From: Meandrina meandrites
Taxonomy: Eukaryota; Cnidaria; Anthozoa; Scleractinia; Meandrinidae
Length of the DNA stretch: 64,000 bases
Assembly: GCA_963693305.1 (NCBI GenBank)
Contig: OY855906.1
Span: forward strand, 18,498,161-18,562,160
Reading direction: 5' to 3'
Shown here in pieces: positions 6,598 through 33,259 of the stretch. Position 1 is the first letter of the stretch. Each line of letters starts with the position of its first letter. Made by a program: the position numbers and the translations under genes. The notes beneath the pieces are model-generated. The model was not told where the DNA came from, searched no databases, and saw only the letters and a program-made list of their open reading frames with translations.

Positions 6598-7707
6598 AAC
6601 GCTCAAGCCTGGTTCTCATTTTCCATTGACATGCCTGTGACATAGTCGCCAGCAATGCCTGGGATACCGTTACGGGAAATGTGAACATTTATTGCCATAT
6701 TATCCATCCCAGGAATCGACCACCAGCTTGCCTGCAAGGTTGAGCTGAGTTCAACTTGTCAGAGAAACTGGTTAATGGTGAATAACATTTGAACATCATT
6801 GGTGGTGGTTGGCAACAAAATGTATTATGTAATAACTTGATTTATGAATTAGTTACCATATTTACCCATGTGCTATGCCCCTCCCTCCCCAATGTATAAT
6901 ATGCACCCTAATTTTGGAGTTTCTTTTGATGAAGAAATGAACATAAGAAAAAAGAAAGTGTACAAGCAAACAAACAAACAAAATAGTATGAAATGGATTT
7001 ATTTTGTCACCTTACTGAGTAATTACAACAATGTTTATTACCTTACATGCTACCAGCACTTGAAAACAAAACATTGATCTCAGAAGGTGTGCAAAGCCAC
7101 CTGTAGTGAAAGCAAACACAAATTTTCCTAGTTAAACAACGGTTATCATAACTACAAGTCTCTTTCTTGTATGGAGTTCTGAAAATATTCTCTGTTTTTG
7201 TATATTTTATTTTATTTTCTACTCATGCAACTATGTCTTGTGTTTACTAAAGTCTTTAAAATCAAAAAAAAAAAAAACAGAAAAAAAACCTCTGTACCAA
7301 ACAGTTCTCTTCCAGCATTAGGGTATCTTCTTTCCTCGGAGAGGCCAATGATTCATGATTGTAAATATTGATTATTACAGGCAATGTGATATGAGGGAGG
7401 AAACATTTCCTACCAGATATATTGAATATGAGACTGCTTGCTACTTAATCTGGAGATGGATTCAATTCCTTTTAGATGATGAATGACTTATGGTAGTTCA
7501 TGTGCTCAAACATCATGCATGAGGGTCCTTCGATGTGAAAGGACTTTGTCTTCTGAGAAATTATGTTCATCTCTGGCTCGGCATCATCTTTGTCATGCTA
7601 TGGACTTCATATTTTTTTCTCTGGAATAATGAGGAAGTTTGTAATGCCACTGACTGTGGGTCTCGAGTGTTGTAGCACATTGCTTCTCCCATGGTGGTTG
7701 GAAAGGT
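6598..7707. other. No gene seen; Maverick pre-insertion flank
   Basis: Non-coding sequence with an A-rich tract (about 7262-7290). It ends at GTATAG (7708-7713), the left copy of the Maverick target duplication. No features beyond low-complexity sequence were recognised. Confidence 0.5.
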
Positions 7708-7713
7708 GTATAG
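7708..7713. repeat. Maverick target-site duplication, left copy (GTATAG)
   Basis: GTATAG immediately precedes the left TIR and is repeated exactly at 33254-33259 after the right TIR. A 6-bp duplication is typical of Maverick integrase. Confidence 0.95.
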
Positions 7714-7920
7714 AGTAGTAAAGCCCCTTGGTTTAAGACCCGTCCAATAAGAGAAGAGTATTTTAGGCGACAGCCAATCATAAGGCCGGATTTGGGTCAC
7801 GTGACCTGACGTCATCATAAGTCACATGACCTGTGACGTCATATTTGCACTTTTTGACTGGGTTTAGGCCAGAACCAATCAGAGGAGTCAGAGAAGACAC
7901 GTGATCATTTGATTGACAAG
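7714..7920 (+). repeat. Maverick left terminal inverted repeat
   Basis: The 207 bp match the reverse complement of 33047-33253 with two substitutions (both G versus C). It carries two CACGTG E-boxes, two TGACGTCA (CRE/ATF) palindromes and two CCAAT motifs, so it may double as a promoter or enhancer. Weaker similarity, such as GACAAGTCCGG and CGCATGCGTA, continues inward to about 8015. Confidence 0.95.
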
Positions 7921-8022
7921 TTTTTAATGATTGACAGGTTTGTAAATACCCCAGGGGTTTTTTGACAACAAGACCGGGGGTCCTGCACGACAAGTCCGGT
8001 CTCACGCATGCGTAGTGAAACT

Positions 8023-8756: not shown

Positions 8757-8925
8757 GGTAATGAGAAGTGAATAGACTTCGCTGCTATTTATAGCCTGTT
8801 TTGTGTCATGTGACCTATGAAAAGGGGGGATACCCCCCCCATCCCCTCTGTTCTTCTTTTGTCACGTGATGGGTCTTTTTTGTATATAAAGAGCGCGATT
8901 TATTTCGTTTTCTCCGTTTTGCAAA
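8757..8925. promoter_or_regulatory. Left divergent promoter with two TATA boxes and kappaB-like element
   Basis: Minus-strand TATA at 8794-8785 and plus-strand TATATAAA at 8883-8890 face outward. Between them lie a G6-AT-A-C-run element (8819-8847) and a CACGTG E-box (about 8862). GGGATACCCC at 8827-8836 fits the kappaB consensus GGGRNWYYCC on both strands. An almost identical 28-bp block occurs in the promoter at 23203-23230. Confidence 0.75.
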
Positions 8926-9398
8926 ATGACTTTGCGTCGTAGTTTGAGGTTACAGGGTTTAGCGCCTGAGTTTGATGTATTTCAGGATCGTTGTTTTGTC
9001 TGCCTCCTCTGGTTGGATATCGACAACCTGTTACAGGCTACTCGATTGGAGTGTTGCGGTAAATTTCTCCATAAGCGCTGTGCTGAGATGTTGTCTGGAA
9101 CTAGGACTTGCGGTCATTGTAAAAGACCTAAAGAAGCTGCGAGTGTGTCTGGTCCACACTGGACGTTTGCCCTTGACCGTATTCAACATTTCCGTGATAA
9201 CCCAGAGGAAATGTATAACTTTCACTCGCCCGAGTCATATTCTTTCAGGGTGGTGAGTATTGTTTGTTGGTCTGCTTGAGTTGGGATTGTTTGTTGTTCT
9301 GATGGCTTTGTTGTTGTTTTTTTCAGTTACAGCATCCGTTTCATCCTGACTTGTGGAGTCAACTCTTAGTCATTGCCGAGCAAATGATCTTAAGATGA
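8926..9398 (+). CDS. RING-finger protein, two exons (8926-9252, 9327-9398)
   Basis: Exon 1 encodes a RING-like zinc-binding pattern: CFVC, then ECC, FLHKRC and CGHC (about residues 23-66). The C-x2-C, C, H-x2-C, C-x2-C spacing is typical of RING E3 ubiquitin ligases. A strong donor (GTGAGT at 9253) and acceptor (TTTTTTTCAG ending 9326) define a 74-nt intron in phase 0. Exon 2 reads to a TGA at 9396-9398. The same frame stays open beyond it to 9701, so the TGA may be a premature stop. TATATAAA lies 36 nt upstream of the ATG. Likely an early host-manipulation gene; the E3 role is inferred from the motif only. Confidence 0.7.
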
Positions 9399-21637: not shown

Positions 21638-22527
21638 ATGGAATCCCCCTCGAGATATCAAATCAACGAAAATCCTCCTCCTCCACCGAAACCAAAACGC
21701 AAATACCAGCGAAAAAAGAAGCAGGAAAAGCCAATCCCTAAGAAACAAAAGAAAGGTGAGTCGACGGCAAGCATTCCTCCTAGGATGGAGTTTTTTTTCA
21801 CTATTTTTTTTTCATTTTCTTATAGAGTTTCATTCCCTGGGACAAATGGTGAAAGATGGTGAAAATATTGAGGTACAAGTTTTGGAAGAAGGTGAAATCG
21901 CATTTGACCCGGATCGATTTTTGGAAGAATTTAATTCACCAAAGTTGCCCTGTCCCCTACACGAGGATGTCATTGCAAGAAAAAGTAGCTAGCAATGGTT
22001 GGGAGTACTTCTCTTGCCCAGTGTACGATCAAGGTGTCTATTGCTTCGTGCTGACTGGAAAAGATAAAAGCCAAGAGTACCTAGAGAAACTACGTTGCTG
22101 GCGCATAGCGATGAGCTATTACAAGGACAACCTTAACAAAATGCTGTGCTATTGCAACCAAAGTTTGATGTTGTCGATCTCAAAGTCGAAAGACAACCCA
22201 AACAGGTTCTACTTGCGCTGCCGACGCAACAAATGTCGTTTCTTTCAATGGGCTGACCGATATCCCAGTGCTCGGAATAAAGCTTGGTTTGAAGGAAGAG
22301 AGTACTATGGGTCAGCGGATCCCCTCTACAAAGGTCAAGAAGTCAACAGGAACGACCCCCCAAGGGATGAGGCAATGTGGAAGCAATGTCAGGAGGAGGT
22401 GTTCTATTTGAAAGATGATAATATCATTAATCTCCCACCAGAGTTAACGGGTCAAAAATACAGCAAAGACATGGAAGGTCAATTGAGAAATCAATTGTAT
22501 TTCAAACGCATGTCAAATCCCATGTAA
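21638..22527 (+). pseudogene. GRF-type zinc-finger protein, two exons, frameshifted
   Basis: Exon 1 (21638-21755) encodes a Pro/Lys-rich basic leader. A 70-nt intron (GTGAGT at 21756; CTTATAG ending 21825) joins in phase 1 to exon 2. Exon 2 starts in one frame (acidic, LEEGEIAFDPDRFLEEF) and switches frame near 21950-21960, around a CCCC run, continuing to 22527. The second part holds the GRF pattern CYC ... FYLRC ... KCRFFQWAD (about 22150-22270). GRF fingers bind single-stranded nucleic acid in topoisomerase III, APE2 and NEIL3. A role in replication or repair of the element is plausible. AATAAA follows at 22541. Confidence 0.65.
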
Positions 22528-23077: not shown

Positions 23078-23397
23078 GACTCACTTCTCAGAACACGTGT
23101 TTGTCTTTCTCCTGACTGCACTCGCGTCAACAACAGAAGTGGTCTACTAACCAATCTGATTCCCTTATATATGAGAAAAGTGGATCACGTGACAAAATAG
23201 GAGAAAAGGGGGGATACCCCCCCATCCCCTTAGTAGACCACTCCTATCGATTTGATTGACACTACGCTGACGCGAGTGTGATCTGATTGGTTCATCTTAA
23301 ACGACGTTTCCTGATTGGTTAACGCATTTTATAAATTTAGCGCGGCAAACCGATTTTTTCACTTGCAAACATAGTTTGGTCTTGAGCGCTTTTCAGC
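23078..23397. promoter_or_regulatory. Right divergent promoter with kappaB-like element
   Basis: Minus-strand TATATAAG (23171-23164) and plus-strand TATAAAT (23330-23336) face outward. Between or near them lie CACGTG E-boxes (about 23094 and 23186), several ATTGG (inverted CCAAT) boxes and the 28-bp G-run/C-run block (23203-23230). GGGATACCCC (23211-23220) fits the kappaB consensus. TTTAGCGCGG (23337 on) is one base off an E2F site. Confidence 0.7.
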
Positions 23398-23862
23398 ATG
23401 GCTGAAAACAAGAGAAGTAAAGAGGAAGAGGACAAATCAGATGAAGAATTACTACAAGCGGTAGAAGAACTGGAAGAGGACTTGTCGTTAGCGAAGGCAG
23501 TCGATGAGGAAGAAGAGGTAATTATGAGTCATTGGGATATATTACCTGTAGAAATTCAAAGAAAAATTCAGTGGTTAGCCGTTCGCGAGCATGTGCACGA
23601 TAGGGTTCATTGGAAAGCATTAAACGCTATGTTCGATCCTTGCGACACATGTGATTTATTTTTACTGTATGAAGATGGTGATTTTGACAAAAAAGGAGAT
23701 TTCACCAGAGGAATAAGAACGTTCGTAGTGTCAAGATATCCCGCTTACTCCCTCACTCTACAATTGGATCGACCAATGCCTTGGTACCATCGACGATGTG
23801 TACCCATTGAATATGACGATACATACTTCGCTGAACAAGAACTCTCTAATTCAATCAGGTAA
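23398..23862 (+). CDS. Acidic leader exon (23398-23517) reading into module 1
   Basis: The ATG at 23398 opens 40 codons that are strongly acidic (KEEEDKSDEELL, EELEEDLSLAKAVDEEEE). A donor-like GAG|GTAATT at 23518 falls exactly between codons (phase 0). Unspliced, the frame reads straight into module 1 (23518-23862): HWDILPVEIQRKIQWLA, a CDTC pair and HRRC. Spliced, the leader can join any of eight downstream modules whose acceptors are all in phase 0. The constant N-terminal helix of the modules resembles the start of an F-box (LPxEIQxKI), but that is tentative. Confidence 0.75.
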   Translation: MAENKRSKEEEDKSDEELLQAVEELEEDLSLAKAVDEEEEVIMSHWDILPVEIQRKIQWLAVREHVHDRVHWKALNAMFDPCDTCDLFLLYEDGDFDKKGDFTRGIRTFVVSRYPAYSLTLQLDRPMPWYHRRCVPIEYDDTYFAEQELSNSIR

Positions 23863-24251
23863 AATCTCACTGGGATCGATTGCCATTGGAACTACAATTG
23901 ACGATACAATGGTTAGCAGACAAGATGCATGTGCGTGAACGATTGTATCATTCATTTCAAAGAGGTACGAGACCCCGATGGTGGCGTGGAGCGACTTCGT
24001 GGAATAGAGTACATTTATACATCTATACTTGCAATGTTTGCGGTTTATTTCTAGACCAATATAAGGACAGAATAGACGAACGCGGCGATATCCTAAAGGT
24101 TGAAAAAGGACTCCAAGCAAGAATCCGACGCGTTGTATTTTTAGGAGACACAATGCATGTACATTGCGCATCTGAGTATTGTGTAGTGCGTGATCTGACT
24201 ACTTATGAATGCGCCTTATGCGATGTCATTCACATTGGAAACCGACTATAA
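23859..24251 (+). CDS. Alternative terminal exon, module 2
   Basis: The acceptor ...TTCAATCAG ends at 23858. The exon reads in phase 0 to a TAA at 24249-24251: HWDRLPLELQLTIQWLADK, then CNVCGLF with YKDRIDERGDI and HVHC. This CxxC...HxxC zinc pattern recurs in most modules. The previous module's stop (23860-23862) sits just inside this exon. There is no donor at the 3' end, so it would be a last coding exon. Confidence 0.7.
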   Translation, partial: VKSHWDRLPLELQLTIQWLADKMHVRERLYHSFQRGTRPRWWRGATSWNRVHLYIYTCNVCGLFLDQYKDRIDERGDILKVEKGLQARIRRVVFLGDTMHVHCASEYCVVRDLTTYECALCDVIHIGNRL

Positions 24252-24263
24252 TGTTTTCCACAG

Positions 24264-24719
24264 ATTCAAAGCAGATGGGATCTCCTTCCACCGGAACTAC
24301 AGTGCAAGATCCAGTGGATGGCCGATCGTGCGCATGCTCGCGAACGACTACGAAAGTGGTGCGCAACGACCTACAGACCAAGTCACGGACATTATTACTA
24401 TGACATTTCCTATTACACCAATCGTTTACCGAAAAGAACCAACTGGGAATTCATTCATCTCTTATTCGTACATTGTAAAAAGTGCGGCTTGTATCGCAAT
24501 CATTACAAGAACAAAGTGAATGGTATCGGTGACATCGAATACCATGTGACTATGAAACTGCTTTGGCCAATTTGGGCAGTGGACAGTTTAGTAAGCCGAG
24601 ATATGAAAACCTACTATCACATAGGATGTTTGCCTGATGGTGATACCTTGAAGACAGAACGTTTCTATAAAGACACACCTGATTTATACGTTTGTTATTA
24701 TCCCGCTTTTGCAGTTTAG
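24264..24719 (+). CDS. Alternative terminal exon, module 3
   Basis: The acceptor TTTTCCACAG ends at 24263, phase 0. The exon reads IQSRWDLLPPELQCKIQWM with ADRAHARERL, then CKKCGLY with YKNKVNGIGDI and YHIGC, to a TAG at 24717-24719. The constant head is nearly identical at DNA level to modules 7-9, while the C-terminal half differs strongly. Confidence 0.75.
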   Translation: MQSRWDLLPPELQCKIQWMADRAHARERLRKWCATTYRPSHGHYYYDISYYTNRLPKRTNWEFIHLLFVHCKKCGLYRNHYKNKVNGIGDIEYHVTMKLLWPIWAVDSLVSRDMKTYYHIGCLPDGDTLKTERFYKDTPDLYVCYYPAFAV

Positions 24720-25215
24720 TCTATGGGATCTTTTGCCACCAGAGGTGCAGTCCAAGATCCATTGGATGGCCCAGCGTGCGCATGGTCACGAACGATTAAA
24801 CCGACAAATGCATAGTACTTACCTAGCTAGACGACCGCGATACTACAATACAGGCGAATATCAATGCAAAACGTCAAGCAACAGATGGAGAGATCCGCCT
24901 GTTTGCACGTGGAAAACCATCCATCATTGCCTCATTCATTGCTCCACATGCGGTTTGACGCATAAACATTACGAAGACAAAATAGACATCAGGGGTAACA
25001 TAAAATACGTTGAAACACTACTCCCACATGGACTAAGAAGACGTAGTCACTGTTTAGTAACCGAAGATGGTGTGACATTCAATCATCATGGATGTAAAAA
25101 AATCACTCGGCATTTGAGTACGGGTATGCAATTCGCTTTGATGGGCATGAACATAATGCAAACATTTCGTCCAAGGCAAAAGATGCTAACACAGAGTTAT
25201 TTCGCAGGTTACTGA
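24715..25215 (+). CDS. Alternative terminal exon, module 4
   Basis: The acceptor CGCTTTTGCAG ends at 24714, phase 0. The exon reads FSLWDLLPPEVQSKIHWM, AQRAHGHERLNRQ, then CSTCGLTHKHYEDKIDIRG and HHGC, to a TGA at 25213-25215. It is the longest module. The head has three unusual changes (Q for D, GH for AR) relative to the consensus. Confidence 0.75.
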   Translation, partial: FSLWDLLPPEVQSKIHWMAQRAHGHERLNRQMHSTYLARRPRYYNTGEYQCKTSSNRWRDPPVCTWKTIHHCLIHCSTCGLTHKHYEDKIDIRGNIKYVETLLPHGLRRRSHCLVTEDGVTFNHHGCKKITRHLSTGMQFALMGMNIMQTFRPRQKMLTQSYFAGY

Positions 25216-25522
25216 CAGTCTGTGGGATAGATTACCCCTCGAACTACAACAAAGAATTCAATGGATGGCAGACCATGAAATAACGAAACAACGATTGAAA
25301 CGCTTTGTATATGGTGGTATCCAAGGAAGATACCGCACGAACACTCCAGGTCTAGAGATGCATTACTATTCCACCTGGGAAAATATTCATGCGTGCATCT
25401 CCCACTGGTTCAAATTCAAAGCGGAACATAAAAACAGAGTAGAAACCAATCATAGAAAATGGGCTTCCTATATATTGAGTCAGTTTCCAAGATCATACAG
25501 TTTTCTCTACATTTACTTCTAG
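25208..25522 (+). CDS. Alternative terminal exon, module 5 (no zinc motif)
   Basis: The acceptor TTATTTCGCAG ends at 25207, phase 0. The exon reads VTDSLWDRLPLELQQRIQWM, ADHEITKQRLKRF and a short C-terminal part without CxxC or HxxC. The TAG stop (25520-25522) shares its AG with the acceptor of the next module. It is a shortened or specialised module. Confidence 0.7.
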   Translation, partial: VTDSLWDRLPLELQQRIQWMADHEITKQRLKRFVYGGIQGRYRTNTPGLEMHYYSTWENIHACISHWFKFKAEHKNRVETNHRKWASYILSQFPRSYSFLYIYF

Positions 25523-25813
25523 GTAAAAACCGACTTCAGTTACTGGGACCGCTTACCCTATGAAATTCAATGCATCATTCAATGGACAGCCGATCGTACA
25601 CATGCTCGCGAAAGACTAACACGAATGGTAACTGGAGGTATCGATCCTGTGCATCGATGTCTTTGGCAACGCCTCGACCCAGACCACGAATCCTACTATT
25701 ACAGCACTTGGGAAAAGATTCATACTCATTTAGCGAAGCGAATAGAGCGAATAGAGAAAGGATGGACGAACAGATGGATGAATAGAGTGCAAAGAACATA
25801 CTTCTGTAATTAA
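25523..25813 (+). CDS. Alternative terminal exon, module 6 (no zinc motif)
   Basis: The acceptor TTTACTTCTAG ends at 25522, phase 0. The exon reads VKTDFSYWDRLPYEIQCIIQW, TADRTHARERLTR, then a region resembling module 5 (YYYSTWEKIHTHL) lacking the zinc ligands, to a TAA at 25811-25813. Modules 5 and 6 look like a separate short subfamily. Confidence 0.7.
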   Translation, partial: VKTDFSYWDRLPYEIQCIIQWTADRTHARERLTRMVTGGIDPVHRCLWQRLDPDHESYYYSTWEKIHTHLAKRIERIEKGWTNRWMNRVQRTYFCN

Positions 25814-25833
25814 TTCAATCATTATCTTTGCAG

Positions 25834-26202
25834 AGTTTATGGGATCGCTTACCTCCAGAACTACAGTGCAAGATCCAATGGATGGCCGATCGTGCGCATG
25901 CTCGCGATCGATTGAACAGACAATTCCGTTCCGAATACGTAGCCAAACGAACGCGATATTACAATTTTCGCGAAATGAACCGATATCCCATTGGTACGTG
26001 GAAAAGAATTTATCATAACTCACCATTTTACAACTGCGATAACTGTGGACTTCATTACTTACACTACGCCGATAAACTAAACGATGTGGGTGACATCACC
26101 AAAGTAGAAACTTTTCTATATGCGTGGCCGAAGAGACTAACTGTTATGTTTTACACGAGAGATCGCATCTCATTCCTTCACATGGGATGTTTTATTACCT
26201 GA
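25834..26202 (+). CDS. Alternative terminal exon, module 7
   Basis: The acceptor TATCTTTGCAG ends at 25833, phase 0. The exon reads SLWDRLPPELQCKIQWM, ADRAHARDRLNRQ, CDNCGLHYLHYADKLNDVG and HMGC, to a stop at 26200-26202. The stop and the next acceptor are only 13 nt apart, so there is no room for a separate poly(A) site. Confidence 0.75.
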   Translation, partial: SLWDRLPPELQCKIQWMADRAHARDRLNRQFRSEYVAKRTRYYNFREMNRYPIGTWKRIYHNSPFYNCDNCGLHYLHYADKLNDVGDITKVETFLYAWPKRLTVMFYTRDRISFLHMGCFIT

Positions 26203-26215
26203 CTTTTATTCCTAG

Positions 26216-26659
26216 GTCAACCAAAGTTACTGGGATGTTTTACCACCGGAACTACAACGCAAGATCCAGTGGATGGCCGATCGCGCGGATGCTCGCGAAC
26301 GATTAAACAAGGAAATCCAACAAGAGCATCATATTCCTTTGGCTGCTCGTTTTTTCAATAGACCCTACGTCTTTCACCAATACCGATACTTCAATCAACT
26401 CCCACAAAAAACAACCACGAATTGGAATAGAATTCAATGTTTTTTCGCTCATTGCATGTTTTGCGGACTCACATTCCGACATTACAAAGACAAATTGGAT
26501 GAAAATGGTGACATAAAAAAAGTACACAGTCTACTTGTGTATTTCAGAGATAATCCCTATTACTGTCTGATGATGAAAGATAAGAACCACATTTACCATA
26601 GAGACTGTAGGAATGACTACTCAACTGATTGTCATTTCCATTTTCCAATGACTGACTGA
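26216..26659 (+). CDS. Alternative terminal exon, module 8
   Basis: The acceptor TTTTATTCCTAG ends at 26215, phase 0. The exon reads VNQSYWDVLPPELQRKIQWM, ADRADARERLNKE, CMFCGLTFRHYKDKLDENG and YHRDC, to a TGA at 26657-26659. Confidence 0.75.
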   Translation, partial: VNQSYWDVLPPELQRKIQWMADRADARERLNKEIQQEHHIPLAARFFNRPYVFHQYRYFNQLPQKTTTNWNRIQCFFAHCMFCGLTFRHYKDKLDENGDIKKVHSLLVYFRDNPYYCLMMKDKNHIYHRDCRNDYSTDCHFHFPMTD

Positions 26660-26674
26660 CTAAATTCTTCACAG

Positions 26675-27112
26675 GTCATCGACAGTCTGTGGGATCTTCT
26701 ACCCCCTGAAATTCAATGCAAGATCCAGTGGATGGCCGATCGCGCGCATGCTCGCGAACGATTAAACATGATATGGAGCCCGCATAGTTGGATCAACCAT
26801 TACTTTAATCGAAGCTGCTGTTATTGCGGTACCCTCATCGACGGATACCGCGGAAAACTGAACGAACAAGGAACCTTCATTTCTGTTCCCAAACGATTAC
26901 AACCGCATAAACGATACACGAACACTTTTCCAATCTTAAAGAAACAACAGGTGTCTTTTGGAATCTCCATGCATATGACTTGTCACTTTGACTTTCTCGA
27001 CAATAAAACCGTAACCTCATACATTGCTCCCACTCCCGACTTCAATCAACTTGCAGAAAAAATGAATGATGAACTCTTGCCCTGTGGATGGCCGCGGGTT
27101 TACGTCAATTAA
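26675..27112 (+). CDS. Alternative terminal exon, module 9
   Basis: The acceptor AATTCTTCACAG ends at 26674, phase 0. The exon reads VIDSLWDLLPPEIQCKIQWM, ADRAHARERLNMI, a CCYCGTLIDGYRGKLNEQG ribbon and MHMTC, to a TAA at 27110-27112. A further acceptor (TTTTTTTCCATAG, ending 27125) follows at once. Confidence 0.75.
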   Translation, partial: VIDSLWDLLPPEIQCKIQWMADRAHARERLNMIWSPHSWINHYFNRSCCYCGTLIDGYRGKLNEQGTFISVPKRLQPHKRYTNTFPILKKQQVSFGISMHMTCHFDFLDNKTVTSYIAPTPDFNQLAEKMNDELLPCGWPRVYVN

Positions 27113-27125
27113 TTTTTTTCCATAG

Positions 27126-27149
27126 ATCCAACGCGGATTCGACTTCCAT
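27126..27149 (+). other. Exon remnant after a tenth acceptor, cut by the piggyBac-like insertion
   Basis: After the acceptor ending 27125, the sequence ATCCAACGCGGATTC resembles the start of module 3 (ATTCAAAGCAGATGG). The insertion separates it from the polymerase sequence at 28716. It may be the original 5' end of the POLB exon, but the frames do not match without a further shift. Confidence 0.4.
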
Positions 27150-27153
27150 TTAA

Positions 27154-28711
27154 CCCATTGGCGCCTGTGCCGGCCGTAGCCGGCCGCGCGAAAACCACCC
27201 CCAAAATACCTGTGCCGGCCGTAGCCGGCCTTAAAAAGCACGTGTCCACAAATGCCCTTTCCCTCCCTCGCTGAGGTTTTTTGGGTTCTCCTATTGTTCT
27301 ATAGATAATAAAGGCAAATAAACCAATCAGAATCTGTTTTCTGCGCATATTTTTAGGGAACTCTTGGGGTCCTAGAAAGAAGGTTTTTTGTACTAATCCG
27401 TGCGTTCAAAATGTACAAGAAAGTCATGGCGCATCGCGGCTCTTGTTTACAAACTTTCAAAGCCTTGTTTTTCATTCTGAACGTGGAAAATTCCCTCTAA
27501 AATGAAAAGTAGAAACACCGATCAATTTTTAAGTGGTTCTAAACTGAAAAATCATCGATAACAGAGTGCTAAAACCTTGCTGATGAAGGATTCATCTTTC
27601 CTTCCACGGCCGTGAAGAGATGGTGTCATGGCACTTCAAATGCGTTTTGAATACAAATCACGGACTTGAACACAGACTTAATGAGGCTTCTCAAGACTTC
27701 TGAGAACAAAATGGTAATGTACATTATTGCTTCAAGTTTGGATGGAATTTTTAGAAGGATCGGTAAAGCCATTGAGTGAATAATTGACTGCCGAAGCCGT
27801 CCGCTAAAATTTAAACTTTCGCTTTGGCGTGAACAAGTGAATAATTAACTCTTGTATGCAGGATTGCACGGCTTTGAAATTTTCGATGTTTTGACGCTTT
27901 TCAATACATTTCTTGGCTTCTTCTTACCTAAAAATTAATTTGAAAGAAAGTTTCTTTCAAGTTTCTTTCATTTTTCCATCTTTAGTCCGGAATTTTAGGC
28001 TTTTGAAGCCGAACAGATTTGACACGCACATGTTGTTATCCAATACGCATTTTTAACCAAGACTTGCTTCAGTTGTTTATTTAGCCGCTTTGTTTTGAGT
28101 TGTGTTTAAAGATTTAGAAACTTACTACAGTGCTTCAGAAAATACAAAGGAGTATGTTTATTAACATTAAAAGTAAAGGAAAGCGTTGAAGGCGTTGCTA
28201 GTGTTAATTTTGTGCTAGGAATTCTGTAGTATTGTAAGCGATTTTACGCTGTTTCACGCCGCCGTGATTTGTAAATATTTTCCATCTTCTCGAATTACCG
28301 CTTTTCTGAACCAAGAAATTTCCTTAGTACTTTTGAATTAATGGCAGTAGCAGCTGTACAGAATGAAAACCTAACTTTTACCAAAGTATTTTACGATATT
28401 TGTAAGACTTTGAACAGATTCTCTGTGTTTTTCCGAGCTCCAAAAATGATGCGCAGAGGTGAAGAAAACTTAATCGCTGTCTTCAAGTTTGGTTTGGGAT
28501 CAATTTACGAAGGCTAATAAACTCTTTAAGTCATAAATTAGTCTTTCAACATGTCTAGTTGGAATAAAAGTTTACTTCAGGAACTAATCATTTGTCTGGA
28601 TTTACTGCGGATATGGTTTATTTTTTCTACTCGCACGCTTGCATTAAATGCCGTAAAAGAGCCAGGTATTTAGGGGTGGGTGCGCGCTAAAAACCTTCAG
28701 GCGTCAATGGG
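27154..28711. mobile_element. PiggyBac-like non-autonomous element inside the Maverick
   Basis: TTAA duplications (27150-27153, 28712-28715) flank inverted ends CCCATTGGCGCCTG (27154 on) and CAGGCGTCAATGGG (to 28711; one mismatch). CCC at the tip and TTAA targets are typical of piggyBac. The 1,558-bp interior has no transposase. Near the left end a 22-bp unit with the palindromic core GCCGGCCGTAGCCGGC is repeated (about 27166 and 27210). It separates the module array from the polymerase gene. Confidence 0.85.
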
Positions 28712-28715
28712 TTAA

Positions 28716-31700
28716 TGTGTCGTTGACAGACGATTAAGACGTTTTGGATTACGACACAGAAACTATACCACTCGCTTAGTCCAACGGGGTGGAGGTGTTG
28801 CTACCGTTCCCTTAGGGAGGAGAGAGAGACCCATCTTGCCCGGACAGATCGAAGAGGCACTGCAGCGTGCCATCAACGAACAAGTACTGACGGATGATGC
28901 TGTGCGAGGTAACGATCATTTACTCATCAACATCAACTCAAATCGTTTGAGAAATGCTTATCATTCACGACGAGTTCGCGTACGTGACTGGCGAACCAAT
29001 TCTTTACAAGCCAGACAAATATTGGAAGAAATAAGTAAAATGTTAAACTCCAATGAACAATTCAGAATGGATGACACCTTCAGTCTCAACATCAGTCACA
29101 TCCGTGATGATGCCGGTACAGATAAAAAGAGAGTGAAACCTGGTACCTATCAAATAGAGAAACTTTTACATAACAAGAAATCTGTCATCAAGATCAACAA
29201 CGACGACGAACTGTGTTGTGCCAGAGCCCTGGTCACCATGAAAGCTTACTGCGATCACGGTACACGCAGTCCTATCTACGTGGAGTTAAGAAAGGGGCGA
29301 AAAACGCAAACGCAACAAGCCAAAGAATTGCATCGACTTGCCAACGTACCAGAAGGTGCCTGCGGCCTCACTGAAATTCAACAATTCCAAACCCATCTCA
29401 GAGAGTATCAGATCGTCGTCGTCGTCTCGGTGGACCATGGATATCAAATCATATTCAAAGGACCCACCAAACCTCATGAGAAACGTCTCATCTTGATCAA
29501 ACATGGCGAACATTACCACGGATGCAATTCCCTCAAAGGTTTCTTCGGAAGGAACTTCTACTGCTTACATTGCGAAAAAGGATTTGATCACAATCGCCAA
29601 AAGGACCACGCGTGTCGAGGTAAACGATGCTACGCATGTCACCAAGCAACATGTCCAGATTTCCGCCGTGCTATCGCCGAGAAAACCAATGCCAGTTTGC
29701 CTTGTGAATCATGCGGAAGGAAGTTTTTTGGCGATACCTGTTTGAACCTGCACCGCACACACACAACAGAGGAAAAAAAAGCTGATCCGAAAAACAAAGA
29801 CAGTGTTTGTTGCAGACACAAAAAATGCAACGCATGCAACAAGACCCTCACCCAATTTGAGGCCAACACCCGTCACATTTGCGGCTACGCCGAATGCCCC
29901 TCCTGCAAAAGATACCTCAATCTCTATCAGCACCAATGTTTCATCCAAAACCCAAAAAAGTTAGAAGAGCAGAGAAAGAAGAGAAAACAAAGGAAAAGGA
30001 CAGCTGACGGTGTCACTGTCCACGAAGACCCCGATCCGCCCATCTTTGTCAGTTGGGATTCCGAAGCTCGTCAAGAAGAAGGCATTCACGTCCCCAATCT
30101 CATCTGCGCCATGACCGATCAGAGCGATGACCAATACCATTTCGAAGGAGAAACGTGCGTCACAGACTTCCTGGACTGGTTGAGAGCAATCGCAACAGAC
30201 GAGCAACCTGTCATTGCCATCGCACACAATTTTCAAGGGTACGATTCCCATTTCATCTTAGAGGAACTGTACAGACAAGCCATTTGCCCCGACCAAATCG
30301 TGAACGGAGCAAAAATTTTGTCCATGTCCCATGGTAACATCACTTTCAAAGACTCCATGTGCTTCCTGCAAATGCCACTGAGTTCGTTTCCCAAAGCCTT
30401 CGGACTAACCGAGCAGACCAAAGGGTTCTTCCCTCACTTCTTCAACAACCAAGAGAATCAAGACTACGTAGGACCCATACCTGCTCGCGATTACTATGAT
30501 CCCGAAGGAATGTCCAAAAGCAGAAAAGAAGAGTTTGAAAAGTGGTACGCCGAACGCCTCGCCGAAGACTATGAATTCAACTTTCAAGATGAACTGTTGG
30601 CGTATTGCCAATCAGATGTAAAACTACTCCACGAAGGATGCGAAGTGTTTCGCAATGAGTTCCAAGAAGTGGCAGGATTTGATCCCATGGAATGTTGCCT
30701 CACTATTGCTTCGGCATGCAATCTCTACTTCCGTACCAATTGCATGCTTGACAACACACTAGGATCCGAACCCGTGCGAGGGTGGCATGGTAAAGGCAAA
30801 CCACATTCCCACGCATCCCTAGAATGGTTGCATTATGTGAACCACACGCTACCCAGCTGCTCCTCCACCATAAGTGATCGCGTTGCTCATGCCAGAAACG
30901 GTGGAGAACGTAGAGTGCAAGTCGACAACCAGCGAATCTATGTGGACGGATACGACGAAAGAACCCACACTGTCTACGAATTCAACGGTTGCTATTTTCA
31001 CGGTTGTCCAACATGCTTCCCCGACAGAGACAAAAAACACGTGAAACTCAATGAACGCAGCATGTGAGATGTCTACGAAGAGACCCAAACTCGACTAAAA
31101 CGATTGCAAGACGCCGGTTACACAGTGATAGAGATGTGGGAATGTCAATGGAACGACATCAAATCTAAACACAAAGACATCAACGACTACGTCGAGTCGT
31201 TAGACTTGATCGAAAGGTTAGAACCGCGAGAGGCCTTCTTCGGGGGACGCACCAATGCTGTGAAACTCTATCACCAAGTCGAAGAAGGGGAAAAAATCCA
31301 CTACGTCGATTTCACATCCCTGTATCCCTACGTGAACAAAAACTGCGACTATCCTCTTGGCCATCCAACCATCTTGACCGAACCAGGTCACACCGACATT
31401 TCCCAGTTCTTTGGCTTAGCCAAGTGCACTGTGCTACCTCCCCGCGGATTGTATCATCCAGTCTTACCCTACCGAAGTGGAGGAAAATTGACCTTCCCCT
31501 TGTGTCGCACCTGCGTCGAAAAAGAACAACCCAAACTGCTGACCGAACGATCCCCTCTTTGCAACCACACGGCACAGAAACGACAACTCACCGGGACATG
31601 GTGCACACCAGAATTAGAAGAAGCCGTTCGGCAGGGTTACCACATCATCCACATACACGAAGTTTGGCATTTCAGCCAACGCACCAATGTCATGTTCAAA

Positions 31701-32652
31701 ACATACGTGAACACTTTCCTCAAGATGAAGCAAGAAGCCAGCGGATGGCCAAGTTGGGTTGGCAACGACGTCGACAAACAGACCGAATACCTCACGACCT
31801 ACGAACTGAAAGAAGGGATTCGACTTGATCCTAGCAAAATCGAAAAGAATCCCGGCAAACGATCCCTAGCCAAAATGATGCTGAATTCCTTCTGGGGAAA
31901 ATACGGTCAACAGAGTAACAAGTCCCAAGTAGAGGCTTTCACTTCCCCCAGTGCTTTTCACCACCTACTACAAGACGACACCAAACAAATCCACAACGTA
32001 CGAATCGTCAACGAAGAAATGATAGAAGTCGTGTACGACAACGTGATTGATTACGACCCAGTCCAAGTGAACATCAACATCTTTGTGGCTTGTTTCACCA
32101 CCTGCTGGGCACGTTTGAAACTGTATCGCGAAGGTCTCGACAAACTCAAACCCCAACAAACACTGTATTTCGACACTGACTCGATCATCTACAAAGCCAA
32201 AGAAGGAGAAACGAACTTGCCATTGGGTGATTTCCTGGGCGAATTCACCAACGAACTGGATGAAGGAGACTACATCGTAGAATTCGCTGCAGCTGGTCCA
32301 AAAAATTACACCTACAAGACCAAAAATGGAAAGATTTCGTGCAAAGTCCGAGGATTTTCACTCAATGCCAGAGGATCAGAACAACTGAACTTTGACATAC
32401 TGAAACAAAATGTGATCGACGAAGTCACAAGACCTCTCAAACTCAAAACGACAAATTCCCGTGTTCAATCCACATAAAATCACGTGCGACGCCAACAAAA
32501 AACAATTGAACACAGAGACGGAGATCAAACGCTACCAAGTCGTTTTCGACAAACGTGTGGTGGATCCAAGTACCTTCTATTCCTACCCCTACGGATACTT
32601 CGAATGCAACTATTGGGATCAACAAACTGCTGAATTGTTAATAGAACTTTAA
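28716..32652 (+). pseudogene. POLB: Protein-primed family B DNA polymerase, damaged
   Basis: The frame is open from 28716 without an ATG; the first start-like codon is a TTG at 28836. There is an in-frame TGA at 31065-31067 and a frame change near 32450, with the C-terminus ending at 32652. Order of parts: an N-terminal domain, a Cys/His-rich zinc region (about 29550-29940), exonuclease motifs SWDSEA, HNFQGYDSHF and YCQSDVKLL, then polymerase motif A (DFTSLYPYV), motif B (KMMLNSFWGKYG) and motif C (YFDTDSIIY). This is the Maverick replicase, which uses a terminal protein as primer. The N-terminal end may have been supplied by an upstream exon. This copy is not expected to give full-length enzyme. 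Confidence 0.93.
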
Positions 32653-32817: not shown

Positions 32818-33046
32818 TGCGCATGCGTACGAAAACATCGGATACCACATGGAGGACAAGACGAAGCGTGACAAACATATATATATAGAGAACTCGTCAC
32901 TTAACTCGATTAGTCACACGACATGTATCATGATATAGTCGTGTGACCCTAAGTGACCCTAACTCTTACGCATGCGCAACCCCGGACTTGTCGACAACGA
33001 CCCCCGGGGCTTGTAATTTTACCCCAGGGATCATGACGTCATTAAA
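32818..33046. other. Right subterminal non-coding region with hairpin
   Basis: No gene is seen. It contains an AT box (ACATATATATATAG, about 32875-32888), GCGCATGCGT and ACGCATGCGCA palindromes (about 32818 and 32969) and an inverted repeat (32913-32922 with 32938-32947, 10-bp perfect stem GTCACACGAC). The hairpin is about 100 bp inside the TIR, as on the left. Confidence 0.6.
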
Positions 33047-33253
33047 CTTGTCAATCAAATGATCACGTGTCTTCTCTGACTCCTCTGATTGGTTCTGGCC
33101 TAAACCCAGTCAAAAAGTGCAAATATGACGTCACAGGTCATGTGACTTATGATGACGTCAGGTCACGTGACCCAAATCCGGCCTTATGATTGGCTGTGGC
33201 CTAAAATACTCTTCTCTTATTGGAGGGGTCTTAAACCAAGGGGCTTTACTACT
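33047..33253 (-). repeat. Maverick right terminal inverted repeat
   Basis: Reverse complement of the left TIR with two mismatches. It ends ...CTTTACTACT before the GTATAG duplication. It contains the same E-box and TGACGTCA sites. Confidence 0.95.
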
Positions 33254-33259
33254 GTATAG
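33254..33259. repeat. Maverick target-site duplication, right copy (GTATAG)
   Basis: Identical to 7708-7713. It marks the exact right boundary of the element. Confidence 0.95.

Follow-up and report, generated by a model that had tools for sequence, protein, structure and literature searches.

A coral Polinton/Maverick element whose DNA polymerase gene may share its first exon with a tandem array of alternative terminal exons

In adenoviruses, both mRNAs of the E2B unit begin with the same short coding exon. This unit encodes pTP and the DNA polymerase, and the polymerase mRNA and that of the other protein arise from it by alternative splicing (PMC9499273); the many mRNAs of the E4 unit are made by joining a shared 5′ leader exon to various 3′ splice sites (PMC7851563). 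Polintons are considered to be connected with adenoviruses (PMC6431247). Here we analyze a Polinton/Maverick element of the coral Meandrina meandrites that lies in a 64,000-nt stretch of contig OY855906.1 (hereafter the window, within which all coordinates are numbered); the searched genome comprises 551 Mb in 56 contigs. On sequence alone, the element displays two adenovirus-like features, namely one first exon that carries a start codon and a donor in phase with several acceptors, and a replicative polymerase (PolB) among the predicted outputs. It resembles E2B in that the polymerase and another protein would be produced by alternative splicing, and differs in adding about nine tandem small terminal exons between leader and polymerase; these exons are mutual paralogues with block differences between copies, and the leader has 40 codons. 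Relative to E4, the leader would encode a shared N-terminus and carry the start codon, and the final option would be the replicative polymerase. In the literature that we searched, which left out most subscription-journal papers, neither a split PolB nor a terminal-exon array was described for Polintons.

Our preferred reading, to which we assign a probability of roughly 0.83, is that the array belongs to the PolB gene, with a shared first exon, alternative terminal exons inside an intron, and PolB as the last acceptor choice. Exon 1, consisting of a TATA box, the ATG, the 40-codon acidic leader and a phase-0 donor, would be the split-off N-terminus of PolB, and the first PolB intron, about 3.6 kb long in the window, would house eight tandem alternative terminal exons. 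Each of these would comprise an AG preceded by pyrimidines in varying richness, a phase-0 start without ATG, a variable body and its own stop, located at or just upstream of the next acceptor, and the last acceptor would open the PolB body. A ninth open reading frame (ORF), module 1, would be read when the leader donor goes unused; this predicted intron retention is plausible, and module 1 carries a 2-nt deletion with an early stop in two of the five copies. A single promoter and start codon would then yield PolB or, depending on the acceptor chosen, any one of about nine small proteins bearing the acidic tail of PolB.

A genome-wide search with module 9, in which the best candidates were considered, located the array in five copies (that of the window and loci L009, L010, L011 and L012), and beyond these gave matches only at two places, L013 and L014. 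Module 1 denotes the module contiguous with the leader, and modules 2–9 are those opened by an acceptor. The features of the window copy are:

23330–23339, forward strand: TATA-like element TATAAATTTA, 68 nt upstream of the leader ATG
23398–23517, forward strand: leader exon, 40 codons, acidic, probable PolB N-terminus
23518–23523, forward strand: splice donor GAG/GTAATT in phase 0, closing the leader exon
23518–23862, forward strand: module 1, open when the leader is unspliced; premature stop in L010 and L012
23859–24251, forward strand: module 2, acceptor ending at 23858
24264–24719, forward strand: module 3, acceptor ending at 24263; premature stop in L010
24715–25215, forward strand: module 4, acceptor ending at 24714; two alleles across copies, 83% alike overall
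25208–25522, forward strand: module 5, acceptor ending at 25207, the lowest-scoring of the eight
25523–25813, forward strand: module 6, acceptor ending at 25522
25834–26202, forward strand: module 7, acceptor ending at 25833; body replaced in L011
26216–26659, forward strand: module 8, acceptor ending at 26215; upstream sequence differs in L011, phase 0 kept
26675–27112, forward strand: module 9, acceptor ending at 26674
27113–27125, forward strand: PolB acceptor TTTTTTTCCATAG, in phase 0 and 13 nt past the stop of module 9
27126–27153, forward strand: start of the PolB exon, first 28 nt, broken at TTAA in the window copy
28716–32477, forward strand: remaining PolB exon, with an in-frame TGA at 31065–31067 in the window copy

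The initial annotation had described the leader, its donor and the eight phase-0 acceptors of modules 2–9, and their coordinates and frames held on rechecking. By a simple consensus score, which draws on general knowledge of splice sites and is not host-trained, the leader donor ranks first among the 162 GTs of the region; its GT is conserved in all five copies, with the variant GTAACT in L012. The leader itself is identical in L010 and shows ratios of nonsynonymous to synonymous substitution rates (dN/dS) of 0.21, 0.15 and 0.10 against L009, L012 and L011, respectively. The exact string TATAAATTTA recurs in L009, L010 and L012 and is missing from L011. All eight acceptors place the downstream WD-LPxE frame in phase 0, at acceptor-to-W distances of 12, 12, 9, 15, 21, 6, 15 and 15 nt for modules 2–9, and these distances agree between copies in the modules compared. 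Ranked among 185 AGs with the same simple score, the acceptors stand at positions 15, 12, 1, 45, 2, 3, 4 and 8. From the stops of modules 1–8 to the next acceptor we measured −4, 12, −5, −8, 0, 20, 13 and 15 nt, in agreement with the earlier description of stops at or within about 20 nt of the following acceptor. The accompanying statement that no module ends in a donor is correct for the module ends, but the module 2 and module 6 acceptors are followed by GTAAAA, ranking 2 and 7 among GTs.

The phase agreement was also scored blind, by taking the top-scoring AG no more than 42 nt upstream of the W without any choice by hand. Phase 0 was obtained in seven of the eight window modules, compared with control rates of 630/2755 (0.229) at codons of the other ORFs of the element and 186/791 within module bodies; the probability of the window result is 2.1e-4 at a rate of 0.229 and 2.6e-3 at a rate of 1/3. 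The copies, which are close and not independent, gave 6/7 (L009), 8/8 (L010), 8/8 (L011) and 7/7 (L012), with a single module left unscored in L009 and another in L012, and L014 gave 2/2.

In none of the 40 acceptor modules (modules 2–9 in five copies) does the frame offer an ATG from the preceding in-frame stop up to the W. The W-to-W segment (14 codons, window modules 2–9) nevertheless has an in-frame ratio of nonsynonymous to synonymous differences (pN/pS) of 0.20, where the shifted frames give 1.22 and 1.85, which argues that this segment is read as protein, with its start supplied from elsewhere. Such constraint at the amino acid level, on a stretch preceding the internal Met, is hard to reconcile with each module being a separate gene that has its own promoter, starts at the internal ATG of the ..QWMADRAHARERL.. 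stretch and leaves the WD-LPxE segment untranslated. That Met is present in modules 3, 4, 5, 7, 8 and 9 and is where the database ORFs P0001, P0002 and P0004 start, and TATA-like strings lie 48 and 53 nt upstream of the acceptors ending at 24714 and 25522; but the Met is missing in modules 2 and 6 (WLAD and WTAD), spacers of at most 20 nt offer scant room for promoters, and the phase-0 acceptors and the L014 array are left unexplained. We therefore regard separate genes as very unlikely.

Comparison of the copies reveals differences in blocks. Outside 24750–25230, which corresponds to module 4, L010 and L009 are 97–100% alike in every 60-nt bin, whereas within it L010 drops to 72–92% against L009 and matches L011 and L012 at 92–100%. 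In L011, the body of module 7 is unrelated between about 25910 and 26199, and the acceptor of module 8 is different but still in phase 0. At the resolution of the 60-nt bins, the blocks begin and end at, or right next to, the acceptor/N-terminal segment that is repeated along the array (repeats D1 and D4). This pattern looks like cassette exchange or conversion between copies, and the repeated segment is likely to provide the homology by which whole cassettes would move.

No premature stop is found in 42 of the 45 modules, the exceptions being module 1 in L010 and L012, and in L010 also module 3; L012 has an open module 5 with an altered C-terminus. With the replaced module 7 of L011 excluded, all indels are multiples of three in five of the eight copy-module comparisons that contain indels. 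Against L011, dN/dS is 1.28 for module 1, 0.91 for module 5 and 0.18 for module 6. The three premature stops, the fast evolution of modules 1 and 5 and the altered module 5 of L012 are what one would expect of a decaying array of tandem duplicates, in which only PolB and the leader with module 1 are of consequence, the acceptors being relics or accidental. Set against this are the large majority of open modules, the indels in multiples of three, the constraint on the part devoid of ATG, acceptor distances of 6–21 nt without exception divisible by three, and the phase kept by a replaced cassette, and we give the decay explanation very little credence.

The same architecture of leader and modules, which the initial annotation had proposed to seek in other copies, is present in L009–L012 and, in decayed form, in L014, an element whose adjoining capsid-like protein is 53–56% identical to that of the window. 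There, TATATAAAG lies 42 nt upstream of the leader ATG; the 19-codon leader MSELSDEMLNTHMNEFEEE ends in the donor GAG/GTAAGC and is followed by an intron and by two modules behind the pyrimidine-rich acceptors ..TTTTTTTAG and ..TTGTTTTAG, both in phase 0. The recurrence of a cis leader with a good donor bears on a further explanation, in which a polycistronic transcript would be resolved by spliced-leader (SL) trans-splicing, with an SL exon added to each acceptor. Tandem ORFs, each behind an acceptor, are operon-like, and PMC3273482 describes a cnidarian, Hydra, as resolving an operon in this manner: the acceptor in the RFC140-flp operon lies behind a polypyrimidine tract downstream of the stop of the other gene, as the coral acceptors also lie behind a pyrimidine tract 3′ of the stop of another ORF. 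The Hydra gene that receives the SL in trans already has an ATG, whereas in the coral element the leader is in cis and would bring the ATG. An SL would need to supply a phase-0 ATG every time, and a cis leader with its donor is present just upstream and resembles unspliced PolB N-termini. Anthozoans are not known to use SL trans-splicing, and we consider this explanation highly improbable.

At the remaining place, L013:3977–4483, a single module-related ORF has its own ATG and a TATA-like string, with no acceptor seen and with nearby ORFs that contain acidic runs; it possibly represents the unspliced ancestral state. In other Polinton families, 12 ten-kb stretches beside capsid-like matches contained no module match better than E = 2.5, and L027, L029, L030 and L031 none better than E = 1.8; these flank searches covered part of the 85 capsid-like matches in the genome.

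The array is closely linked to PolB. The initial annotation had ended the locus at 27112, omitting the acceptor that ends at 27125. In L009–L012, the module 9 stop is followed by 13 nt containing TTTTTTTCCATAG, after which PolB opens immediately in phase 0, so that with the window a phase-0 acceptor precedes PolB in 5/5 copies; the PolB of L009 has an in-frame stop further downstream. In two related families of the same genome, C (L018/L019) and D (L020/L021), PolB is a single open ORF with an acidic N-terminus behind a TATA string; the nearest named PolB match is the NCBI-named Oculina patagonica protein P0010, which resembles the PolB of family C. The PolB exon of the array copies (exon 10) aligns with the PolB of other families from its own residue 5 in five of seven comparisons, from residue 4 with L022 and from residue 2 with L020, and all seven alignments thus begin before the first ATG of exon 10, at residue 10. 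Their scores were reached by 0/1000 shuffles in six of the seven comparisons and by 3/1000 for L022.

The leader, in turn, resembles the N-termini of unsplit PolB proteins. Against P0009, P0010, P0011, L022, L026 and P0014, the window leader gave P values of 0.003, 0.001, 0.007, 0.093, 0 and 0.0005, and the L014 leader values of 0, 0, 0.001, 0.21, 0.039 and 0.012; for the L011 leader, P was at most 0.011 in five of six comparisons and 0.21 for L022 (2000 shuffles, 18 comparisons, P uncorrected, with family D, L020 and L021, outside the test set). Because PolB is unbroken in two related families and several N-termini of such unsplit PolB proteins resemble the leader, the leader is most likely the first exon of PolB itself, and the modules alternative terminal exons in the first PolB intron. 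The simplest reading is that PolB became divided by an intron at the junction of acidic tail and body, and that this intron filled up with alternative terminal exons. The modules might instead be spliced from the leader while PolB of this family (A) is expressed from another promoter and ATG, outside the choice, and an ATG does stand at codon 10 of the PolB exon; however, a conserved F.F.L motif lies upstream of that ATG, the acceptor comes just 13 nt after the stop of module 9, and the leader resembles PolB N-termini, which makes a separately expressed PolB unlikely, if the least so of the alternatives considered. The earlier proposal of one transcription unit producing one of nine proteins accordingly needs extension: its architecture of a leader with a choice of acceptors is well supported by the copies, by L014, by the constrained N-termini without ATG and by the PolB N-termini, but its count and its unit are incomplete, since about ten products are predicted and the unit is apparently the PolB gene.

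A derivation of the modules from the PolB N-terminus was unsupported (shuffle P 0.11–0.73 for the four modules tried). In a family B PolB, L015 (reverse strand, about 7340–7905), a short leader of five codons, beginning with ATG, ends in a strong donor, CAG/GTAAGTTT; we also noted two more strings combining an ATG with a donor, and an intron-like stretch with an acceptor just upstream of the PolB ATG. This acceptor and the short leader are in phases that a simple coding leader would not have.

Several observations weigh against the shared-exon reading. The intact arrays all come from five close copies of one genome, and the only divergent array, L014, is decayed, with a nonsense codon in its first module and a W-to-C change in its second; PolB was found neither in L014 nor in L027 beside it. 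The acceptor of module 5 is weak (rank 45 of 185) and accounts for the sole miss of the blind test in the window, and constraint is loose in places, as the values for modules 1 and 5 against L011 indicate. The similarity between leader and PolB is short and acidic, and falls below significance for L022. In the window copy, PolB is not intact via the leader route, owing to an insertion, an adjacent 2-nt difference and the in-frame TGA. No AATAAA occurs within about 600 nt 3′ of module 9 in L009, L010 and L012, and no poly(A) signal for the unit was located in the copies other than the window. Finally, the model leaves unexplained how a distal acceptor would be used over a proximal one.

The modules share a WD-x-LPxE-x-Q..IQW segment followed by a variable body, and seven of the nine contain CxxC. 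A structure model has a confident N-terminal helix at residues 1–38, with an overall mean predicted local distance difference test (pLDDT) score of 53.5. No Pfam family was matched by the modules at curated cut-offs, PHROGs gave no match for ten proteins that included five modules, and the viral contigs searched held no relatives of the module alignment or of the capsid-like protein. An F-box identity, suggested by the LPxEL..KI pattern, was rejected, as no Pfam F-box was found at E ≤ 1 in the nine modules and the leader; the poor structure model was likewise counted against it. Protein searches returned seven matches for the modules, presumably ORFs from this genome or a closely similar one; the L013 protein had a single match. 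Judging solely from their variability, our guess is that the modules encode rapidly changing accessory proteins directed against the host or rival elements.

Two further features concern the element as a whole and the break in its PolB exon:

7714–33253, no strand assigned: Polinton/Maverick element, bounded by terminal inverted repeats (TIRs), with an rve integrase with chromodomain and PolB identified by Pfam
27154–28715, no strand assigned: TTAA-flanked insertion with inverted ends CCCATTGGCGCC and CCCATTGACGCC, splitting the PolB exon of the window copy

The TIR arms (7709–7923 and 33044–33258) are 215 nt each with 99% complementarity, and a 6-bp target duplication, GTATAG, was read by eye at 7708–7713 and 33254–33259. 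The integrase matches rve (E = 4.9e-14) and Chromo, each above the Pfam cut-off, and DNA_pol_B_2 is above its cut-off in both open PolB pieces of the window copy. Based on the TIRs, the 6-bp duplication, the rve integrase with chromodomain and PolB, the element is a Polinton/Maverick. The same traits give it a likeness to adintoviruses, for which an integrase with a C-terminal chromodomain is described as a trait in PMC11071296. For three other proteins typical of Polintons, the packaging ATPase, the adenovirus-type protease and the jelly-roll capsid protein, the matches to Pox_A32 (E = 0.0077) and Peptidase_C5 (E = 0.004) lie under the Pfam cut-offs, and a 480-residue protein that we take to be capsid-like from the gene order matched no Pfam family at E ≤ 0.01.

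The TTAA-flanked insertion is 1562 bp long, is not found in the other four copies (L009–L012) and is presumably piggyBac-like. AATAAA at 27307 and 27317 sits inside this insertion and was rejected as a shared 3′ end of the array because the insertion is absent from the other copies; AATAAA is also found inside module 9 of the window, L009, L010 and L012. In the GRF zinc-finger gene of the element (21638–22527), a spliceosomal intron with consensus borders lies at 21756–21825 (AAG/GTGAGT .. TTCTTATAG), and the element therefore seems to use host splicing elsewhere too; a second frame change further downstream in this gene has no obvious cause. A segment combining CACGTG with a TATA string occurs in two opposed copies (8843–8889 and 23165–23211, 72% complementary), which are perhaps shared promoters of two element genes. 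On the left side of the element, a small cysteine-rich ORF (8926–9279) appears RING-like by eye and has no PHROGs match.

If the shared-exon model is right, PolB and the accessory outputs would compete for one donor. We tentatively suggest, with somewhat less than even confidence, that the first PolB intron acts as a bank of exchangeable cassettes served by the promoter, leader and donor of PolB, in which splicing would couple a choice between replicating and deploying one of many rapidly exchanged small proteins, and whole terminal exons would be swapped in frame between copies by way of the repeated acceptor/N-terminal segment. ORF-by-ORF annotation would misread such genes, several database entries starting at an internal Met. 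The model would also account for how a compact virus-like element carries many variable proteins without many promoters. It would represent adenovirus-style shared-leader splicing in the Polinton/Maverick lineage, and would bear on whether adenoviruses inherited this strategy.

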